A DNA stretch of 64,000 nucleotides from an uncultured Candidatus Peregrinibacteria bacterium (lineage in GTDB: Bacteria > Patescibacteriota > Gracilibacteria > Peribacterales > Peribacteraceae): NCBI GenBank assembly GCA_903854335.1, contig CAINVY010000013.1, positions 1-64,000 of the forward strand. The letters run 5' to 3'. The position numbers and the translations under genes are program-made. Below the pieces are notes generated by a model. The model was not told the DNA's origin and searched no databases. It saw only the letters and a program-made list of their open reading frames with translations. Shown here piece by piece: positions 1,350 through 18,013 of this stretch (position 1 is the stretch's first letter; every line of letters begins with the position of its first letter).

Positions 1350-4132
1350 TAGGCATTTTTCCCGTGGCATTTCTTGTACTTCTTTCCGCTGCCGCAGGGG
1401 CAGGGATCATTGCGGCCGACTTTGTCGCTATGCATCGGGGCTTGAGAGCCTGTCGGCGCTTTTGAGCGCTTCGCCATGAGCGGGGTGAGGCCATCGGCGA
1501 GTTGCTCCATCTGTCCTTGCGGGAGCGCGTGGGACTGTGTGGGGACGAATGATGCCGTATCCACGCCGGTCTTCGAGAGCTCTCCCTCGATCTGCGCGGC
1601 ATTCGTCTCGAGCGCCGCCGCGGCCTCCGCTTCCGCTTCCCTCTGCTCCATGAGGCGCACCGCTTCCGGTGAGAATTGTCCGTAGTCGGCTTGGAGTGCG
1701 GCGCGGGTGATGGTGGCGTTGATCGTTTGGAGGAGCTCCTGGAAACGGCGGAAGCCCTGATCCTGATACTCGATCAAAGGATCGCGCTGCGCGTACCCGG
1801 CGAAGGCCACTTGCTCACGCAGATGCGACATGTCGTCGATGTGATCCATCCAGTGTGAGTCGATGGAGCGCAGCGTCACGATGTTCTCGGCGTTCGTCAG
1901 CGTCTGCGGATCGTAGTCGTCGCACTTCTTTGCGTACGCGTCCCGCACGAGCGCGACGAGCGCGTCTCGCAACTTTTCATGGTCATTGAAGGAGAGGACG
2001 AACTTCTCCGTCACGACCCTGGCGAAGTCTTCGTGCAGAGCCGCGAAATTCTCGCACACGCCTTTGACGTTCCACTCTTCGGGATCGATGGAGGAAGCGT
2101 GGACCGCGTAGATATGCTCGGCTTCCTTCTGCATGCCGTCGACGATTTCCTGATGGAGAGGAGAGTCCGTGGCTTCCTCGTTTCGCACCGCCGTCTGCTC
2201 CGCATCGGCGATTTTCTGGAGGATGTTCTGGCGGCGCTTGTAGATGATTTCGCGGTGCTTGTTCATCACGTCGTCGTACTGGAGGACGTGGCGGCGGATA
2301 TCGAAGTTGCGACCTTCCACCTTCTTCTGCGCGCCTTCGATGGAGCGGCTGACCATGCGGCTCTCGAGCGGCACGTCGTCGGGAACTTTCAATCGTTCCA
2401 TCATCGCCTTCAGTCGATCGCCGCCGAAGAGGCGCATGAGATCGTCATCCATCGAGACGAAGAACTGACTCTCGCCGGGATCGCCCTGGCGGCCGGCGCG
2501 TCCGCGCAACTGGTTGTCGATGCGTCTGGCCTCGTGACGTTCCGTGCCGAGGATCGCGAGTCCTCCGAGCTCCGTCACGCCCTCTCCGAGCTTGATGTCG
2601 GTGCCGCGTCCGGCCATGTTCGTGGCGATGGTGACCGTTCCTTTCTGGCCGGCGTTCGCGACGATTTCCGCTTCCTTCTCGTGCTGTTTGGCGTTGAGGA
2701 CTTGGTGGGGGACGGAGAGCTCGTCGAGAAGGAGGCTCATGGCCTCGGACTTTTCCACGGACGTCGTGCCGATCAAAACCGGCTGGCCGCGGTCGTAGCG
2801 CTCCTTCGCCATCTTCGCGACGGCGTGGAACTTCGCGCTCACGGTTTTGTAGATCGCGTCCGTCTTGTCATTGCGGACCATCGATCGGTGCGTGGGGATG
2901 ACGATGGTGCGCAGCTTGTAGATGGATTCGAATTCCTCTTCCTCCGTCTTCGCCGTTCCCGTCATACCGGCGAGCTTCTTGAAGAGGCGGAAGTAATTCT
3001 GGAAGGTGATCGTCGCGAGCGTCTTCGATTCGCGCTGCACTTCCACGCGCTCCTTCGCTTCGATCGCCTGGTGGAGACCGTAGCTATAGCGTCGTCCCGG
3101 CATGAGGCGGCCGGTGAATTCGTCGACGATGATGACCTCGTTGTCCTTCACGATGTAATCGACGTCGCGCTTGAAGATCGCGTGCGCCTTGAGCGACTGC
3201 TCAATGTGGTGGACTTCCTCGAAGCCGCGCTCGGTGTAGATGTTGTCGACGCCGAGCATCTGCTCCATGTGCTTGATGCCTTCCTCCGTCAGGACCGCCG
3301 TGCGCTGCTTCTCATCGACGGTGTAATCCTTCTCGTTCTCCAGCTGCCCTGCGAGCTGCGCGTACTGGTTGTACTTGCTCGTCGATTCGTCCGCCGGTTG
3401 GCTGATGATGAGCGGCGTGCGCGCCTCGTCGATCAAGATGGAGTCCACTTCGTCGACGATCGCGTAGTGGAGACCGCGCTGTACCTGACGCGAGACGGCG
3501 GTCGCCATGTTGTCGCGCAGGTAGTCGAAGCCGAATTCGCTGTTGGTGCCGTATGTGACATCCGCGTCGTAGGCTGCTTTGCGCACGTCGTTGGGGAGCC
3601 CGTGCACGATGACGCCGACCGAGAGGCCGAGCGCTTTGTAGAGCATGCCCATCCATGTCGCGTCGCGTCGCGCGAGGTAGTCGTTGACCGTGACGACGTG
3701 GACGCCTTTTCCTTCGAGCGCATTCAGGTAGACCGGCAGGGTGCAGACGAGCGTCTTTCCTTCTCCCGTTCGCATTTCGGCGATACTCCCTTTGTGCAGC
3801 GCGATGCCGCCCAGGATTTGCACGTCGAAGGGCACCATATCCCAGCCGAATTCCAGCTTCCCCATCGTCTCTTTTCTCCCCGATTCCTTCAGGAGTTCGC
3901 AGGCGCGCACCGCCGTCGCGAAGGCTTCGGGCATCAGGTCATCGGTGGTCTCGCCCTTCTGGATGCGATCGCGAAATTCCTGCGTCTTGGCCGGGAGCGT
4001 TTCCAGGGTCAGGGCGCGGATCGCCGCGTCCTTCTGCGCCTCTTTGACCTTGGCGACGAGAGGTGCGAGCTTGCGCAGCTCCTTCTTGTTGGGGTCTCCG
4101 AGCAGCCGGTTGAGGGAATCCATGACGGACAT
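1349..4132 (-). CDS. secA: preprotein translocase subunit SecA
   Basis: A full-length SecA of 927 residues, the ATPase that drives preproteins through SecYEG at the inner face of the membrane. Visible hallmarks are Walker A (MRTGEGKTLVC, about residues 100-110), the DEAD-type motif in VDEVDSILIDEART, the second helicase half with NMAGRGTDIKLG and QLRGRAGRQGD, and a C-terminal SEC-C zinc motif (CPCGSGKKYKKCHG), which in known SecA binds zinc and SecB or ribosomes. The ATG at 4132 lies 8 bases after a -10 box (TATCCT), so the mRNA is probably leaderless or nearly so. Confidence 0.97.
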   Translation of the reverse strand: MSVMDSLNRLLGDPNKKELRKLAPLVAKVKEAQKDAAIRALTLETLPAKTQEFRDRIQKGETTDDLMPEAFATAVRACELLKESGRKETMGKLEFGWDMVPFDVQILGGIALHKGSIAEMRTGEGKTLVCTLPVYLNALEGKGVHVVTVNDYLARRDATWMGMLYKALGLSVGVIVHGLPNDVRKAAYDADVTYGTNSEFGFDYLRDNMATAVSRQVQRGLHYAIVDEVDSILIDEARTPLIISQPADESTSKYNQYAQLAGQLENEKDYTVDEKQRTAVLTEEGIKHMEQMLGVDNIYTERGFEEVHHIEQSLKAHAIFKRDVDYIVKDNEVIIVDEFTGRLMPGRRYSYGLHQAIEAKERVEVQRESKTLATITFQNYFRLFKKLAGMTGTAKTEEEEFESIYKLRTIVIPTHRSMVRNDKTDAIYKTVSAKFHAVAKMAKERYDRGQPVLIGTTSVEKSEAMSLLLDELSVPHQVLNAKQHEKEAEIVANAGQKGTVTIATNMAGRGTDIKLGEGVTELGGLAILGTERHEARRIDNQLRGRAGRQGDPGESQFFVSMDDDLMRLFGGDRLKAMMERLKVPDDVPLESRMVSRSIEGAQKKVEGRNFDIRRHVLQYDDVMNKHREIIYKRRQNILQKIADAEQTAVRNEEATDSPLHQEIVDGMQKEAEHIYAVHASSIDPEEWNVKGVCENFAALHEDFARVVTEKFVLSFNDHEKLRDALVALVRDAYAKKCDDYDPQTLTNAENIVTLRSIDSHWMDHIDDMSHLREQVAFAGYAQRDPLIEYQDQGFRRFQELLQTINATITRAALQADYGQFSPEAVRLMEQREAEAEAAAALETNAAQIEGELSKTGVDTASFVPTQSHALPQGQMEQLADGLTPLMAKRSKAPTGSQAPMHSDKVGRNDPCPCGSGKKYKKCHGKNA

Positions 4133-11730: not shown

Positions 11731-12127
11731 CAGCGTTCTGCTCCTTCTTACGCCGGGTTCTGTTCCCCGCTTGCGCGGAGTGATGATCATCTCTCTAGGA
11801 TCGCGGTTGCCCGCGACCTCGGGCAGAGGCGTCGAGGGGGTGACGGAACCATCACCGGTTCCCCCGACCCAAATCCTCCTTGCACCACCATGAGTTTACC
11901 GATCCCGCTTGCGCGAGATCCTCGGTCGATCCGAGGCGTTTCACTCCCCATTGCTTGGACTCCTTGCGGAGGCGGATGCGCTGGGTATCGTCTCTGTGGC
12001 ACTTGTCCTGCCGCGCCTTTACCGGATATATGACACGGCGACGGGCGTTACCCGCATGGCGTTCCAGTGGTGCCCGGACGTTCCTCCCCGTACTGTTTGG
12101 GTACAGGGCGATCATCGAAGGAGCAGA
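11731..12127 (-). ncRNA. rnpB: RNase P RNA
   Basis: The catalytic RNA of RNase P, which matures tRNA 5' ends. On the minus strand the 5' part contains GGAGGAACGTCCGGGC (P4 and conserved region I), then GCCACAGAGACGATACC, a GGTAAACTC block and, near the 3' end, ACAGAACCCGGCGTAAG. The 5' segment TCTGCTCCTTC (12117-12127) pairs with GAAGGAGCAGA (11737-11747) as the terminal helix, which fixes the ends. The length is near 390 nt, usual for type A. Apparent protein frames across this stretch are shadows. It has its own promoter and a short terminator. Confidence 0.95.
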
Positions 12128-12132
12128 CGATC

Positions 12133-12161
12133 ATTATCGCTCTTGGTTGCCTTTCGTTCAA
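12133..12161 (-). promoter_or_regulatory. rnpB promoter
   Basis: Minus strand TTGAAC (12156-12161), 17-base spacer, GATAAT (12133-12138). The predicted start near 12127 matches the RNA 5' end. It overlaps the tRNA-Thr promoter on the other strand. Confidence 0.75.
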
Positions 12162-12175
12162 GGAATTCGTACGCT
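12147..12175 (+). promoter_or_regulatory. tRNA-Thr promoter
   Basis: TTGCCT (12147-12152), 17-base spacer, TACGCT (12170-12175); the tRNA starts about 21 bases downstream. Confidence 0.5.
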
Positions 12176-12196
12176 TACCACGGTTGGTTCATTAAA

Positions 12197-12271
12197 GCCG
12201 CTTTAGCTCAGTGGTAGAGCAACGCACTTGTAATGCGTAGGTCCGGGGTTCGAGTCCCCGAAGCGGCTCCA
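12197..12271 (+). tRNA. tRNA-Thr(TGT)
   Basis: Acceptor GCCGCTT pairs with AAGCGGC; D-arm TAGCTCAGTGGTAGAGC; anticodon stem ACGCA/TGCGT with loop CTTGTAA, anticodon TGT; T-arm GGGGTTCGAGTCCCC. CCA is encoded (12269-12271). Confidence 0.97.
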
Positions 12272-12376
12272 TCCATATCTACCGGCAGGTACTGTAGTTA
12301 TAAGCTTTAGCGCAGTGCCCGTCTCCGCTTGGACTTTGTTCCAATATTGCAGAGGAATTGTATTCTTCGCTTATGC

Positions 12377-12493
12377 AAGCGAAAAGGTGACACTTGACAA
12401 AATAGATAAATAATTATAATAACGCTGATGAAAAATCATTCCACATCAACGGCCACACCATCGGCTTCCCCGGAACTTTCGAAAGTTCCTGCC
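12377..12493 (+). repeat. 117-bp promoter and N-terminus cassette, copy 1
   Basis: Identical to 13657-13773. It contains the promoter and the first 22 codons of the gene at 12428, including the perfect 18-bp palindrome GGAACTTTCGAAAGTTCC. The sequences diverge abruptly on the 3' side. Confidence 0.85.
12394..12420 (+). promoter_or_regulatory. promoter of 12428 gene, leaderless layout
   Basis: TTGACA (12394-12399) and TATAAT (12415-12420, 15-base spacer) or TAATAA two bases later (17-base spacer). The ATG is 5-7 bases downstream. Confidence 0.75.
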
Positions 12494-12880
12494 CAAAGAG
12501 AGGTCTCGATCAAGCGCGCGATCGGCGATGTGTGCACGCTCACAAAGAACGGTGTTAGAGGTGTATTGAAAATTGGCGCTGCTGCCCCAGGAAAGATTTG
12601 TCTAGCAACTCTCTTTTCAATGGGAATAATGAATGCTTCTGAACCAACGCTTTCGAGCTCAGTGGCAGCAATTATGGCTGGGGGTCTCTCAATTAGAGCG
12701 TTAGGTGATTGGCTTGATTATCGTCGGAAAGAGCGTCGGCTAAAAGCTGAGGGGGTTAATACCAATGATCGATTCTTCCCTTATAGTGATGGCACACTCG
12801 CAAACAAGATATCGGAAGTCTATTATGCGAAGAGGGAGGGGACGGAATTTTCGCCAAAGGTAAAGGAGGTTAAGAAATGA
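12428..12880 (+). CDS. small membrane protein, accessory island
   Basis: 150 residues. A Ser/Pro/Thr-rich N-terminus (about 1-25) is followed by a basic segment, one or two hydrophobic stretches (about 55-95, with LATLFSMGIMNA and VAAIMAGGLSIRAL) and a charged tail (LDYRRKERRLKAEG). The late motif NDRFFPYSDGTL matches DDRFLPHSRGWL in the neighbour at 13223, and the first 22 residues match those of 13708-14049, so it shares parts with both. The transcript is probably leaderless and a good terminator follows. Function unknown; the genes sit between a tRNA-Thr and its broken copy, which suggests acquired DNA. Confidence 0.65.
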   Translation: MKNHSTSTATPSASPELSKVPAQREVSIKRAIGDVCTLTKNGVRGVLKIGAAAPGKICLATLFSMGIMNASEPTLSSSVAAIMAGGLSIRALGDWLDYRRKERRLKAEGVNTNDRFFPYSDGTLANKISEVYYAKREGTEFSPKVKEVKK

Positions 12881-12902
12881 GTAATCGTTGTTGCAATCCA
12901 GT

Positions 12903-12931
12903 AAAGCCTCCTTCAGAGCAGGGGGCTTTTT
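12903..12931 (+). terminator. intrinsic terminator after 12428 gene
   Basis: AAAGCCTCCTTC...GCAGGGGGCTTTTT forms a stem with a T run. Confidence 0.8.
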
Positions 12932-12991
12932 GGTAGTAGTTCCGTGCCGCATTCTTTTTCGCTTCATCCCTTGTGATTGGCAAATGCGCGG

Positions 12992-13091
12992 CGGTAGAGC
13001 AACGCACTTGCCTGTCCGGCGAAGCCCTGCGCATGCAGGGCGAAGACGGATAATGCGTAGGTCCGGGGTTCGAGTCCCCGAAGCGGCTCCA
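12992..13091 (+). pseudogene. broken tRNA-Thr copy with 40-bp insertion in the anticodon loop
   Basis: GGTAGAGCAACGCACTTG and, after an insertion, TAATGCG plus the complete T-arm, acceptor 3' strand and CCA are identical to tRNA-Thr 12197-12271. The first 16 bases (acceptor 5' strand and part of the D-arm) are missing. The 40-bp insert (13011-13050) splits the loop between anticodon bases G35 and T36. It carries a hairpin (CCCTGC/GCAGGG) between two CGAAG copies, bounded by TCCG and CGGA. It cannot fold as a tRNA. Confidence 0.85.
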
Positions 13092-13180
13092 TCCGTTTCC
13101 GCCCCCTTAGAAACACGCCGAGATGTGTCACGAAAGGAAACTCTCAAAATGGAGAAATGCTATTTGTATTTCTTGAAGGA

Positions 13181-13208
13181 TTGACAAAATTAGATATATT
13201 TCTATAAT
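13181..13208 (+). promoter_or_regulatory. promoter of 13223 gene
   Basis: TTGACA (13181-13186), 16-base spacer, TATAAT (13203-13208); the ATG is 14 bases downstream, leaving a leader of about 8 bases. Confidence 0.75.
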
Positions 13209-13222
13209 CACGCACATTGCTC

Positions 13223-13606
13223 ATGGAAATCAACCCTTATGAACCACCGGCCTCACAATCGGATTCCCCTGACATCTGGCCCAAGAGCACTATTGGTACT
13301 ATCTGCACAATCACCGGGGATCAAATGAGAGATGTCTTGGAATACGTAGCATGTTCTCCTTGCAGAGTGATCATTGGAGCAGGAGCGGGAATTGCATCGA
13401 TGGCGATGGCACCCGAATCGGGCCCGCAAATCATCGCTGGCTCTACTGCCATATACTTGCTGGTGAAAGCCTTCCGCGAATACTGTTTCGGTCAAAATGA
13501 TAAGGATACATTGAAGGAGCTTGGAGGAAATCCCGATGATCGTTTCCTCCCTCATTCGAGGGGGTGGCTCCAAAAAGAAATTGAGAATCGGAGGAATGGT
13601 CAATGA
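13223..13606 (+). CDS. small membrane protein, accessory island
   Basis: 127 residues from ATG 13223 (an in-frame TTG lies two codons earlier). The N-terminus is Pro/Ser-rich, and the centre has a hydrophobic region (about 45-80, VIIGAGAGIASMAMA and IIAGSTAIYLLVKA), compatible with two membrane helices. The C-terminal NPDDRFLPHSRGWLQKEI matches the end of the neighbour at 12428, so the two are distant paralogs. It has its own strong promoter. Function unknown. Confidence 0.6.
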   Translation: MEINPYEPPASQSDSPDIWPKSTIGTICTITGDQMRDVLEYVACSPCRVIIGAGAGIASMAMAPESGPQIIAGSTAIYLLVKAFREYCFGQNDKDTLKELGGNPDDRFLPHSRGWLQKEIENRRNGQ

Positions 13607-13656
13607 ATTTGCGATGGCACAAAATGCTATGCTGGTTATTTCATTTTCGCTACCCT

Positions 13657-13773
13657 AAGCGAAAAGGTGACACTTGACAAAATAGATAAATAATTATAAT
13701 AACGCTGATGAAAAATCATTCCACATCAACGGCCACACCATCGGCTTCCCCGGAACTTTCGAAAGTTCCTGCC
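13657..13773 (+). repeat. 117-bp promoter and N-terminus cassette, copy 2
   Basis: Identical to 12377-12493, offset 1280 bp; it provides the promoter and first 22 codons of the gene at 13708. Confidence 0.85.
13674..13700 (+). promoter_or_regulatory. promoter of 13708 gene, leaderless layout
   Basis: TTGACA (13674-13679) and TATAAT (13695-13700), same sequence as at 12394; ATG 7 bases later. Confidence 0.75.
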
Positions 13774-14049
13774 GGTAAAGAGCAGAAAGAGACCTGGATC
13801 TCTCGCACGATCAACGACTTGCGCACTCACACAAAGGGTTTGGTCAATGCTGTACTAGAAAATGACGTTCTCGATGTTACTAAGGCGGCTGTCGGCTCCG
13901 CTTTGCTCACACCGATTTGTCCAATATTCGCTCCAATTGCGCTATTTGCCAGCGTAGGGGTAGCCGCCCTTTCTTTAGAAGCCATTATGGATTATGAGAT
14001 CGACAGAAAGCGAGAGAAGGAAAAGAAAAAAGTAGATACTGCAAAGTAA
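13708..14049 (+). CDS. small membrane protein, accessory island
   Basis: 113 residues. The first 22 are identical in DNA and protein to those of 12428-12880, then the sequence differs. A hydrophobic region (about 70-95, LLTPICPIFAPIALFASVGVAAL) could form one long or two short membrane helices. The C-terminus is highly charged (DRKREKEKKK). It ends just before a strong terminator and converges with the caspase-like gene at 14119. Function unknown. Confidence 0.6.
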   Translation: MKNHSTSTATPSASPELSKVPAGKEQKETWISRTINDLRTHTKGLVNAVLENDVLDVTKAAVGSALLTPICPIFAPIALFASVGVAALSLEAIMDYEIDRKREKEKKKVDTAK

Positions 14050-14081
14050 TCAGTTCCCAGGGAAGCATCCAATTCATCAAT

Positions 14082-14108
14082 GCCCCCCTTAAAGTAGGGG
14101 GCTTTTTT
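14082..14108 (+). terminator. intrinsic terminator between 13708 gene and caspase-like gene
   Basis: GCCCCCCTT and a complementary AGGGGGC pair around TAAAGT and are followed by six T. The stop codon of the convergent gene lies 11 bases further. Confidence 0.85.
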
Positions 14109-14118
14109 GTTGTGATGT

Positions 14119-16257
14119 TTATGCCGCTTTTCTCTCTGGCGTATCCGTATTTCCCTTCTCCTTTTCCGGAAGCTGAGTTATCTGCTCTAAGATCGTCTCT
14201 TCTATTGGTTTGTCTTTCCTCGGAATGAAGATCGACACGTTCGAGTCGCCTTCGTCCTGCCTTCGCATGATGTCTCCCAAAGTGATGGTCTGTTTTTTCG
14301 CTTCCTTGAGTCCGAGAACATTTGCCGAGAATTTACTTCCCGTTGCCTGTTCAAGATCAGTGAACCCTACTTGTCCATATTCGTTCGTTGCGATGAAGAT
14401 GGGGCGATAGTCCGTTCCCTTCAGCGCCGCGTCGGTATTCATGGTGAGGTTCGTGGAGTAACAAGATTCGAAAATGAATACATCTTTCTGTAGAAGCGGA
14501 GACTGCGTTTTGAATTTTTCATAACGATTTCGTAACGCTTTTGCAAAATATTTGTAATGGAGTGCTCCCGCATCGGTTGCTGGTGCGTTTCCCTTTTTCC
14601 TATCTCCTCCGCTTCCAAGAAAGAATGTGTCGTCGAGTCCGTGTCCGTCAAAGATGAACGTATGGGGAGGAGGCACGGACACCATCTCTTGAAATACTTG
14701 ATCTTTCTTTCTCAAAATATCCGCCTTTGCTTCTGCCGTAATTTCTCCAAACTTTTTCTTGTAAGAATTATTCGCCATTTCCAAATCATTGGTAATGGGG
14801 CGGATGACGTGTAGCGGTCCTCCTGCAGCCTTGAGGCGTTCAACGTATGCAGGAGTCCCGAAACGCGGCACCCGCTCAAAGTCTTCTAGTTTTGCCTCCT
14901 TCATAAGCATCTTCCTTTGCAATGTGGATTGCATTACAAAATCTCCAGTCTTTTTGTTTTTGTAAGCACTTTCATTGTTTGCCACAAGGGTTACAGCTCT
15001 GTCCGGTCCTAGAACGGGGGTGTCTTTCATCGTTCTCCGGAACGCCTCGATATCCTCTCGCTCCCTGTCCACCGATTCGCGAGTCACGGGAGTGCCTTTG
15101 CGATGCAAGTTACGTCCTATCATAATTGGGTATTTTGGATTATCGCGAAATGCAGTTTGCGGAATGAATGCGATGACATCCTGAATGTTGCCCATGGAGG
15201 GGTCGCTGAGGAACTTGAGCAGATCAAGTTCAGTGGAGTGATCGTACGTCTTTTCAGCACGGTTTTTCTTAATCAAGGCCATCAGCAATGGGTTGAGCCG
15301 CTCACAACTCTTTTCGTCGCGGAATACATTTTTCACGATGTCTTTAATTTCGTTTGTGGTGCTTTTTTCCAAGAAAAATATGGAGAATCTGTCTTGGACT
15401 GCCTCGAAAGAGTCATCCTCTGTGCTGATCAGCATGAGGAGTTCATCCGTTATGGCAGTGAGTACATTGACCGAAAGGCTTTCGATACGAATGTTGTATT
15501 TGCGCAGGATGCTGACGCCAGCCATCTCTTTTCCTGGCGGAAACCTTAGAATATCCAGCTTTATTAAGAGTTGATTCACGTCTTCAAGAGTATGCATTGG
15601 TATTCCTGCCTGTTTCATCTGACGAATCCATCCGATCGCATCGGTCGATCGTTTCTCCCCTATGGTATCGAGTGTCCCAATAAAGTTTCCCGATGCATTC
15701 ACGCCAAGAGCGCGCAGCTCATCGGATAATGTTTTCGCTGTCGTCAGTTCTTTATCGGCTTCCTCCGGGTGAAATTTCCAACGTTGAGAAGAATGATCGA
15801 ATTCCGTCAGATTTTTTTTGTAGAGTTCAAGAGCAGCGACATCGGGCTCTTGGCGTGGAATTTGCAGTTTCCCGTACTGCGTATACCACCGAGAAAAATT
15901 CTCGCCGACATCTGCCTGATTTTTACAAACTTCGATGAATCCTCTATCAATCCATCGCCAATATTTTCCACTTACGAAATCCTTGGCCATACTGTCTTCC
16001 GTTGAGGGATCCAGTCGCCATGATCCGCCAATATTCGATGCGATGCGCAGGATATTCGTGCGCAAATTTCTTTCTGCCTGTTTGCTCTTTTCTTCGTCTT
16101 TGATACCGCCCTTTCCCATGACCGAGGCAGCAGCGGTAAGAATGTCGGTTGTATCTTTTTCGAAGTGGAGTGCCGTGAGAACCTCCTTCAAAGGTTTGTC
16201 TTTGAGCGCGTCCAGGTTGGGCTCGAGAGAGGGTTTTTCTGTATGTTGATCGGGCAC
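14119..16257 (-). CDS. caspase-like (clan CD) protein, large paralog
   Basis: 712 residues, no signal peptide or membrane helix. The C-terminal third has a caspase-fold pattern: HTFIFDGHGLDD with the candidate catalytic His near residue 536, then DVFIFESCYSTN with the candidate Cys near residue 597, each after a hydrophobic strand, as in caspases, C11/C25 peptidases and CHAT proteins. The N-terminal two-thirds is helical and charged, without a known domain. The first 20 residues match the paralog at 16306. The start is GTG, 7 bases after TATAAT, so the mRNA is probably leaderless. Inference: a cytoplasmic regulated protease or a derived non-protease; substrate unknown. Confidence 0.7.
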   Translation of the reverse strand: MPDQHTEKPSLEPNLDALKDKPLKEVLTALHFEKDTTDILTAAASVMGKGGIKDEEKSKQAERNLRTNILRIASNIGGSWRLDPSTEDSMAKDFVSGKYWRWIDRGFIEVCKNQADVGENFSRWYTQYGKLQIPRQEPDVAALELYKKNLTEFDHSSQRWKFHPEEADKELTTAKTLSDELRALGVNASGNFIGTLDTIGEKRSTDAIGWIRQMKQAGIPMHTLEDVNQLLIKLDILRFPPGKEMAGVSILRKYNIRIESLSVNVLTAITDELLMLISTEDDSFEAVQDRFSIFFLEKSTTNEIKDIVKNVFRDEKSCERLNPLLMALIKKNRAEKTYDHSTELDLLKFLSDPSMGNIQDVIAFIPQTAFRDNPKYPIMIGRNLHRKGTPVTRESVDREREDIEAFRRTMKDTPVLGPDRAVTLVANNESAYKNKKTGDFVMQSTLQRKMLMKEAKLEDFERVPRFGTPAYVERLKAAGGPLHVIRPITNDLEMANNSYKKKFGEITAEAKADILRKKDQVFQEMVSVPPPHTFIFDGHGLDDTFFLGSGGDRKKGNAPATDAGALHYKYFAKALRNRYEKFKTQSPLLQKDVFIFESCYSTNLTMNTDAALKGTDYRPIFIATNEYGQVGFTDLEQATGSKFSANVLGLKEAKKQTITLGDIMRRQDEGDSNVSIFIPRKDKPIEETILEQITQLPEKEKGNTDTPERKAA

Positions 16258-16264
16258 GAATAGT

Positions 16265-16270
16265 ATTATA
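16265..16270 (-). promoter_or_regulatory. -10 box of large caspase-like gene
   Basis: TATAAT on the minus strand, GTG start 7 bases downstream; flanking sequence nearly identical to that of the paralog at 17927. Confidence 0.65.
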
Positions 16271-16305
16271 CTCTTATTTGTTCAAATTGGCCATATTTCG
16301 AATGC

Positions 16306-17919
16306 CTATGCCGCTTCTCTCTGCGGCGCATTCATATTTCCCTTCTCCTTCTCCGGAAGCTGAGAAATCTGCTCCAGGATCGTCTCGTCCTTCGGCTTGT
16401 CCTTTCTCGGAATGAAGATCGAGACATCGGCATCGCCCTTATCCTGCCTGCGCATGATGTCTCCCAAGGTAATGGTCTGGGGCTTGGCTTCGGAGATGCC
16501 GAGGACATGCTCCAAAAACTTACTTCCTGTTTTGAGTTCAGGATCTCCATATCCGACCTGTCCATATTCGTTCGTTGCGATGAAGATGGGGCGGTAGTCC
16601 GTTCCTTTCAGCGCTGCATCGGTATTCATGGTGAGATTCGTGGAGTAGCAAGATCCGAAGATGAAAACATCTTTCTGCAGGAGCGGAGATTGCCCTTTGA
16701 ATTTTTCGTAGCGCTTACGGAGTGCTGTCGCGAAACCTGTGTAACTGATTTTGTCAGAGTTGGTGAGAGCGAAAGAATCCGGTAAGCCATGCCCGGAAAA
16801 GATGAACGTGTGCGGAGGGGGTGAAAATTCAATATCTTTGTACACTTGCTGCCGTTTCTCATCGATATCCGCGATCAGTTTTTTCATATAGGCCTCGTAC
16901 TTTGTCTGCCCCTGAGCGTTCTTCACCCCGCCACGCTCTATCTGCGAGGCATCCTCCATCACCTGAATGACGTTCAACGGGCCGCCCGCAACCTTGAGTC
17001 CATCCAAAGTTGCTTCCCTGGCGAAGAACGGAACTCTCTCAAAATCTTTCACATCAGCCTTTCCCGTAGCGATGGTTGCTTTCTGCGCTTCTTCACTGAA
17101 GAGTCGTCCGGTCTTCTTGTCCAAGAAATAATATTCATTGTTTGCAACGAACGTGACGGCACGATCCGGTCCCACAACGAGAATGTCTTTCATGGTTCTT
17201 TGAAATTCCTCGATGGACTCTTGTTCTTCTTCCACCAATATGCGCGTCACGGGGGCTTCTTTGCGATGCAGGTTGCGTCCGATCATGAGCGCCAGCTTCG
17301 GATTGTCGTGATAAACTTTCTGGGGGAGAAACGTGATGACATTATGGACGCTGGCTAAGGCAGGGTCTTGGAAGAATTTGAACAGATCGAGACTTCCTTT
17401 TTTTCTTGATCCCTTTCCCCCCAAAGTGGGAACATTCCACCTATTTCTTTCCACCAATGCTCTCAAGAGAGGATCGAGGCGTCGACAACTCTGTTCATCG
17501 CGGAATGCGTTATCCACGGCATTGTCGATTTCGTGAGGATCCATCTCCTGCAGCAGGTTATTCGATTGCTCTTCTGCGGCTGAGCCGTCGTATTCGTCGC
17601 TGAGAATTTTTATGAGCCTTGGTTTCATTGCAGAGACGACGGAGCTCGAGAGGTCCTCGATGTGAATGTTGAGATGGCAGAGGATTTGGAGGCCCTTGAT
17701 CTCATGTTCTTTGGGCAGATGAAGGATACGCAGGTTCTCTCTTGCTTTGGCTGCCTCCTGAGGAGTCTTGATCGCAACTCCCGCGTCGTTGGCGCGGTGC
17801 ATCCATTCGAGGGTATCGGTGTCGTTGCCATCTTGAATAGGAGATGCATCCAATGATGTATCTTTAAGCGCGTCCAGGTTGGGCTCGAGTGAAGGTTTTT
17901 CTGTATGTTGATCTGGCAC
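16306..17919 (-). CDS. caspase-like (clan CD) protein, smaller paralog
   Basis: 537 residues, paralogous to the gene at 14119 and 48 bases from it. It keeps the N-terminal 20 residues and the C-terminal domain (HTFIFSGHGLPDS with His near residue 375, DVFIFGSCYSTN with Cys near residue 423) but lacks about 170 residues of the N-terminal helical region. The residue two before the Cys is Gly here and Glu in the paralog, so activity may differ. After the Cys both share YRPIFIATNEYGQVG and LGDIMRRQD. The start is GTG, 7 bases after TATAAT. The tandem pair converges with the small membrane-protein genes. Function unknown. Confidence 0.7.
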   Translation of the reverse strand: MPDQHTEKPSLEPNLDALKDTSLDASPIQDGNDTDTLEWMHRANDAGVAIKTPQEAAKARENLRILHLPKEHEIKGLQILCHLNIHIEDLSSSVVSAMKPRLIKILSDEYDGSAAEEQSNNLLQEMDPHEIDNAVDNAFRDEQSCRRLDPLLRALVERNRWNVPTLGGKGSRKKGSLDLFKFFQDPALASVHNVITFLPQKVYHDNPKLALMIGRNLHRKEAPVTRILVEEEQESIEEFQRTMKDILVVGPDRAVTFVANNEYYFLDKKTGRLFSEEAQKATIATGKADVKDFERVPFFAREATLDGLKVAGGPLNVIQVMEDASQIERGGVKNAQGQTKYEAYMKKLIADIDEKRQQVYKDIEFSPPPHTFIFSGHGLPDSFALTNSDKISYTGFATALRKRYEKFKGQSPLLQKDVFIFGSCYSTNLTMNTDAALKGTDYRPIFIATNEYGQVGYGDPELKTGSKFLEHVLGISEAKPQTITLGDIMRRQDKGDADVSIFIPRKDKPKDETILEQISQLPEKEKGNMNAPQREAA

Positions 17920-17926
17920 GAATAGT

Positions 17927-17932
17927 ATTATA
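17927..17932 (-). promoter_or_regulatory. -10 box of smaller caspase-like gene
   Basis: TATAAT on the minus strand, GTG 7 bases later; duplicated with the gene start. Confidence 0.65.
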
Positions 17933-18013
17933 CTCTTATTTATTCAAATTGGCCATAATTCGACGCATCGCTTCCCTTTCATCTTTTTCACAGGGTAAAG
18001 CGTCAGAAATCCC

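Follow-up and report, generated by a model that had tools for sequence, protein, structure and literature searches.

What do two adjoining genes of an uncultured, ultra-small Candidatus Peregrinibacteria bacterium encode, and what might their products do in the cell? The genes lie on the minus strand of a stretch of 64,000 nucleotides, analyzed as a whole and called the window below; both begin with GTG and are placed as in the first-pass annotation, P1 at 14119..16257 (712 amino acids) and P2 at 16306..17919 (537 amino acids). That annotation had read the products as caspase-like proteins, lying in an accessory island and possibly acting together with neighboring small membrane proteins. Fold, phylogenetic distribution and gene neighborhoods are considered here in turn.

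The caspase-like domain and its predicted active site

P1 and P2 are 54% identical in alignment, indicating tandem paralogues, and they have a 5′ cassette in common: 113 nucleotides of promoter-like region and first codons (minus strand; 16189..16301 for P1 and 17851..17963 for P2, where a TATAAT lies 7 nucleotides before the GTG) are 91% identical. A synonymous-codon test for gene conversion between the two was not significant (p ~0.15), so only the likeness of both ends is reported. At the locus of another homologue (L056), a 475-amino-acid non-caspase gene and the caspase gene share a near-identical promoter, leader and first 24 codons (1407-1560 and 2923-3076), and nothing beyond.

P1, P2 and their relatives share one layout: the N-terminal region varies and is mostly helical, a conserved linker (DPAL...RNL) follows, and the protease domain lies at the C-terminal end. 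The catalytic domain of P2 covers approximately residues 251-505 (16405..17169, minus strand), the range that aligns to legumain; that of P1, approximately residues 421-690 (14188..14997, minus strand), has boundaries carried over from P2 via the alignment. Each protein has one GHG motif after a hydrophobic strand and one SCYSTN motif after a later strand. The predicted catalytic residues, all encoded on the minus strand, are His539 (codon 14641..14643) and Cys599 (14461..14463, within ESCYSTN) in P1, 60 residues apart, and His377 (16789..16791) and Cys424 (16648..16650) in P2, 47 residues apart. The first-pass annotation had seen in these motifs the His/Cys pattern of clan CD peptidases, and the alignment of the C-terminal regions of 31 homologues bears this out: the only invariant columns are the His of GHG and the Cys of SCY, a pattern far beyond chance at a mean column identity of 19%.

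Structure prediction, which had been proposed as a check on the caspase-like reading, agrees. In an AlphaFold2 model of P2 (pLDDT 85, pTM 0.84), H377 follows strand 370-375 and C424 follows strand 418-422; the model has a six-stranded sheet of the caspase type, as judged on the overall structural alignment, and model and alignment together put the conserved His and Cys at the C-terminal ends of neighboring strands, the clan CD arrangement. VIA-align matched the model over residues 251-504 to legumain (Z 14.9; 192 residues, 4.0 A), PIG-K (Z 14.1) and caspase-6 and -7 (Z ~12.5); PIG-K, caspases and plant legumains were also the best matches in Foldseek, with SAVED-CHAT at E 0.019 ranked below legumain and the caspases. 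Gingipain (C25) was not among the fold matches listed by either program, and no secretion signal was seen. A viral fold library gave weak matches at most, to large-DNA-virus proteins that resemble caspases or clostripain, and a sequence search of solved structures (PDB) with P1 and P2 gave nothing meaningful. An hhalign comparison of the family with a profile built from six C14 caspases gave a probability of 95 and E 2.1e-8; GHG fell on GHG and SC on DCC, aligning both catalytic residues. Fold, His/Cys invariance and the Peptidase C14 profile comparison thus all support the caspase-like reading: there is good support, at the level of sequence and model, for P1 and P2 as caspase-fold (clan CD) proteins with an intact predicted His-Cys dyad, and they would be expected to be proteolytically active.

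Among the scores seen, none of the homologues passed a curated cut-off. P1 and P2 had no match to PF00656 (Peptidase C14) at E 1, nor did any of the 31 members at E 0.01, the best C14 score seen being 12.4 bits (L055; Pfam cut-off 21.4). Matches to Pfam Peptidase_C13 (E 0.0025; not among the matches of P1 and P2), to the NCBIfam model “caspase, EACC1-associated” (E 0.0092) and to the PADLOC “caspase” model (E 3.6e-4) each occurred in one of the 31 members, no Pfam family being matched by two or more of them. The family also departs from the orthocaspase motif DxCxSG, since Asp stands at C-2 in five of 31 members (six of six in the compared C14 set) and the residues common at C+3 do not include Gly.

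What might such a protease cut? E451 of P2 lies after strand 5, 27 residues past the Cys, in a column that is Glu in 28 of 31 members. In PmC11, the S1-loop residue Asp207 is 28 residues after the Cys and superposes on Glu500 of MALT1 (PMC4850288). Because E451 is placed like these two residues, cleavage after Arg or Lys can be guessed for the P1/P2 family, a guess drawn from one column and from a position counted along the sequence rather than from superposition.

A patchy family with variable N-terminal regions

With a search profile seeded with two proteins from the same genus and one from the same family, homologues were found in 33 of 353 genomes of the class (~9%; 30 before the alignment was improved), distributed over 28 of 208 genera. 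Two of the genomes are themselves recorded as Candidatus Peregrinibacteria. A sample of 380 genomes from the phylum contained no convincing match outside the class, the one weak match there covering the linker region only. It is well supported that the family is confined to the class holding Candidatus Peregrinibacteria, patchy within it and variable in front; it is described in no database searched. Start codons of the homologues were assigned mechanically, and three members give a clean reading only if TGA encodes glycine. One homologue (L057, 4862-7507) is interrupted by an in-frame TAG and is probably a decaying copy. Spread by phages or plasmids was considered and is unsupported: one homologue, used as the query, matched nothing in phage and plasmid collections, and P2 matched nothing in viral contigs.

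P1 and P2 are 44-54% identical, over the aligned parts, to proteins of another genome of the same genus (G001), compared with 87% for the neighboring sugar transferase; at the sequence level, the family evolves fast, P1 and P2 diverging much quicker than this adjoining housekeeping gene. Such divergence bears on the possibility that P1 and P2 are ordinary maturation or turnover proteases with cellular substrates and no role in conflict. The closest fold, legumain, is indeed that of a processing enzyme, but roughly nine in ten genomes of the class, two from the same genus included, lack the protease, and both the rate of divergence and the variability of the N-termini count against a maturation or turnover role, which we regard as improbable.

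The N-terminal regions had been described as large, helical and unlike known domains. This stands for P1 and P2, where they are predicted to be helical and match nothing in Pfam or NCBIfam, with the qualification that in relatives the region is often of a helical-repeat type. A segment of ~180 residues in P1 (helical; approximately residues 21-180, 15718..16197, minus strand) is absent from P2 and common to P1 and the G001 homologue. A separate model of the P1 N-terminal region (pLDDT 57) is too poor for its fold to be judged, and matches of this model to mTERF- and TAL-type helical repeats (Z <5) were set aside as weak. Self-alignment scored against 25 shuffles detected no N-terminal repeats in P1 or P2 (z <1); seven relatives gave z values of 36 (L046), 33 (L049), 14 (L061), 12 (L064), 10 (L069), 8.5 (L062) and 6 (L048). 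The N-terminal part of the first of these is encoded by five in-frame tandem DNA repeats of 114 bp, 81-86% alike (945-1484), which suggests recent expansion.

Neither P1, P2 nor most homologues have a strongly hydrophobic segment, as scored with a simple window rather than a signal-peptide program. Surface processing, one of the roles suggested at first pass, is for this reason unlikely, and P1 and P2 are most likely cytosolic. Another possibility is that they are effectors that an epibiotic bacterium delivers into host or prey cells, where the protease would cut a host target bound by the N-terminal region. Such a role would fit the fast evolution, the patchy distribution and the variability of the N-termini, and related bacteria of the same radiation live on other cells (PMC8080830). 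However, there is no strongly hydrophobic segment suggestive of a signal peptide, and no secretion genes were recognized beside the loci, where the neighbors are mostly housekeeping genes; delivery into another cell therefore seems unlikely to us.

Genomic context of the proteases

The protease genes sit between tRNA-Thr and purH, and G+C content at 12000-18000 is 0.46-0.49, compared with mostly 0.52-0.60 elsewhere in the window. In two genomes of the same genus, the tRNA-Thr and the flanking sugar transferase are retained and the protease is missing. Both observations support the accessory island proposed at first pass. The protease gene of G001 adjoins two tRNA-Thr genes, and the sugar transferase and exonuclease genes beside it match those of the window. 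A partial tRNA-Thr-like copy in the window (12986-13099) has a 40-nucleotide insert near the anticodon with a 36-nucleotide palindrome, a pattern present once in the genome; the two tRNA-Thr genes at the matching site of G001 are in tandem and both are called by ARAGORN.

Three small membrane proteins are encoded beside the proteases (12428-12880, 13217-13606 and 13708-14049), in convergent orientation. Two small genes of the window have a 5′ part in common (12366-12502 and 13646-13782, 93%), in the manner of P1/P2 and of the L056 pair. Do the small membrane proteins and the proteases form a functional set, as the first-pass annotation supposed? A specific version would be a caspase plus pore-former unit with gasdermin-like logic: the two sets of genes lie side by side and both have leaderless-type promoters, and a long hydrophobic stretch is present in one or more of the small proteins. 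The leaderless style is real, but it is common in this genome (38 matches genome-wide vs. six for a reversed control pattern) and so marks out no particular gene set. The small proteins themselves, moreover, occur in the window's genome only, in four copies (96 related genomes searched; none in the other 95), and the fourth copy (G000:C13:178520-178891) is ~160 kb away, without a protease; they were not found in G001, the same-genus genome with the proteases; and, being convergent, they are not co-transcribed with the proteases. The idea of a functional set fails on these grounds, and a pore-forming partnership appears very improbable.

Across the loci of the homologues, apart from the class of upstream ORFs described below, there is no widely recurring neighbor family. 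Most neighbors are housekeeping genes, and they vary from locus to locus, so that context lends no direct support to a role in defense. A defense island was likewise considered and is not supported: the neighbors share no defense genes, and PADLOC matches among 73 of them are scattered and generic.

The exception is a short ORF of 50-119 amino acids ending at or near the protease start, found at 12 of 30 testable homologues and at nine of 153 control genes (p = 5e-6), an enrichment noticed before being tested on the same genomes. These ORFs are weakly similar to one another and form small clusters, one of which, compared with 341 genomes of the class, had a single strong match, beside a protease. 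One interpretation is that they encode dedicated inhibitors, part of the family then being toxin-antitoxin-like with the protease as toxin. The coupling of such ORFs to the protease and the specificity of that one cluster speak for inhibitors; the ORF is, however, absent at P1/P2 and at many relatives, and the weak likeness among the ORFs is also unfavorable, leaving this interpretation doubtful.

A proposed sensor-protease model and known systems

A protease that is conserved while the helical regions in front of it differ greatly is what would be expected of a sensor-triggered cutting enzyme. On balance, we lean toward the view that P1 and P2 are cytosolic sensor-protease proteins of an undescribed caspase-fold family of the class, acting in regulated proteolysis and perhaps in self-killing defense. 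In this model, the protease domain would be held inactive until the N-terminal region recognized a trigger; the freed protease would then cut a few cellular proteins, and the outcome would be regulated proteolysis in conflict or stress, with self-killing defense as one possible form. The upstream ORF of ~40% of the relatives, though not of P1/P2, could encode a partner or an inhibitor. We infer regulated activation, its trigger, inhibition, the partner function and the role in conflict; a part in defense or cell death is possible for P1 and P2. A more far-reaching proposal, which we put forward tentatively, is that these are class-specific sensor-proteases in which a caspase-fold effector is combined with exchangeable helical-repeat sensors and, in many members, is restrained by a tiny co-translated partner; they would act as an immune or suicide system of one or two genes that existing models do not find.

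If the proteins are triggered proteases, streamlined and probably symbiotic bacteria would possess regulated proteolysis of the caspase type whose recognition modules can be exchanged, and the paired upstream ORFs of the relatives would open the way to a direct test for a partner or inhibitor. In the literature searched, nothing linked caspases to Peregrinibacteria, nor, in any relevant way, to Gracilibacteria, and classical caspase homologues are rare in the phylum (PF00656 in two of 362 genomes).

How do P1 and P2 compare with known systems? Legumain (C13) and PIG-K are the best structural matches of the P2 catalytic domain, and legumain likewise has its His and Cys at the ends of neighboring strands; identity over the aligned part is, however, ~10%, and in P1 and P2 no secretion signal was seen and no legumain-type C-terminal domain was identified. 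Orthocaspases and metacaspases (C14, PF00656) are distant homologues by the profile comparison, with the catalytic residues aligned, and bacterial caspases linked to repeats have been described (PMC3501461, PMC8195603); P1 and P2 differ in having no C14 match, no conserved DxCxSG and a C-terminal protease. With PmC11 and clostripain (C11), the family has in common an acidic residue 27-28 positions past the Cys, by sequence counting (PMC4850288), whereas the primary S1 Asp of PmC11, two positions before the Cys, is not conserved. From SAVED-CHAT and the caspase systems of PMC8195603, P1 and P2 differ in that no second-messenger or guide-RNA component and no shared neighborhood was seen here; what they would have in common with these systems is the joining of a recognition module to a caspase-fold protease.
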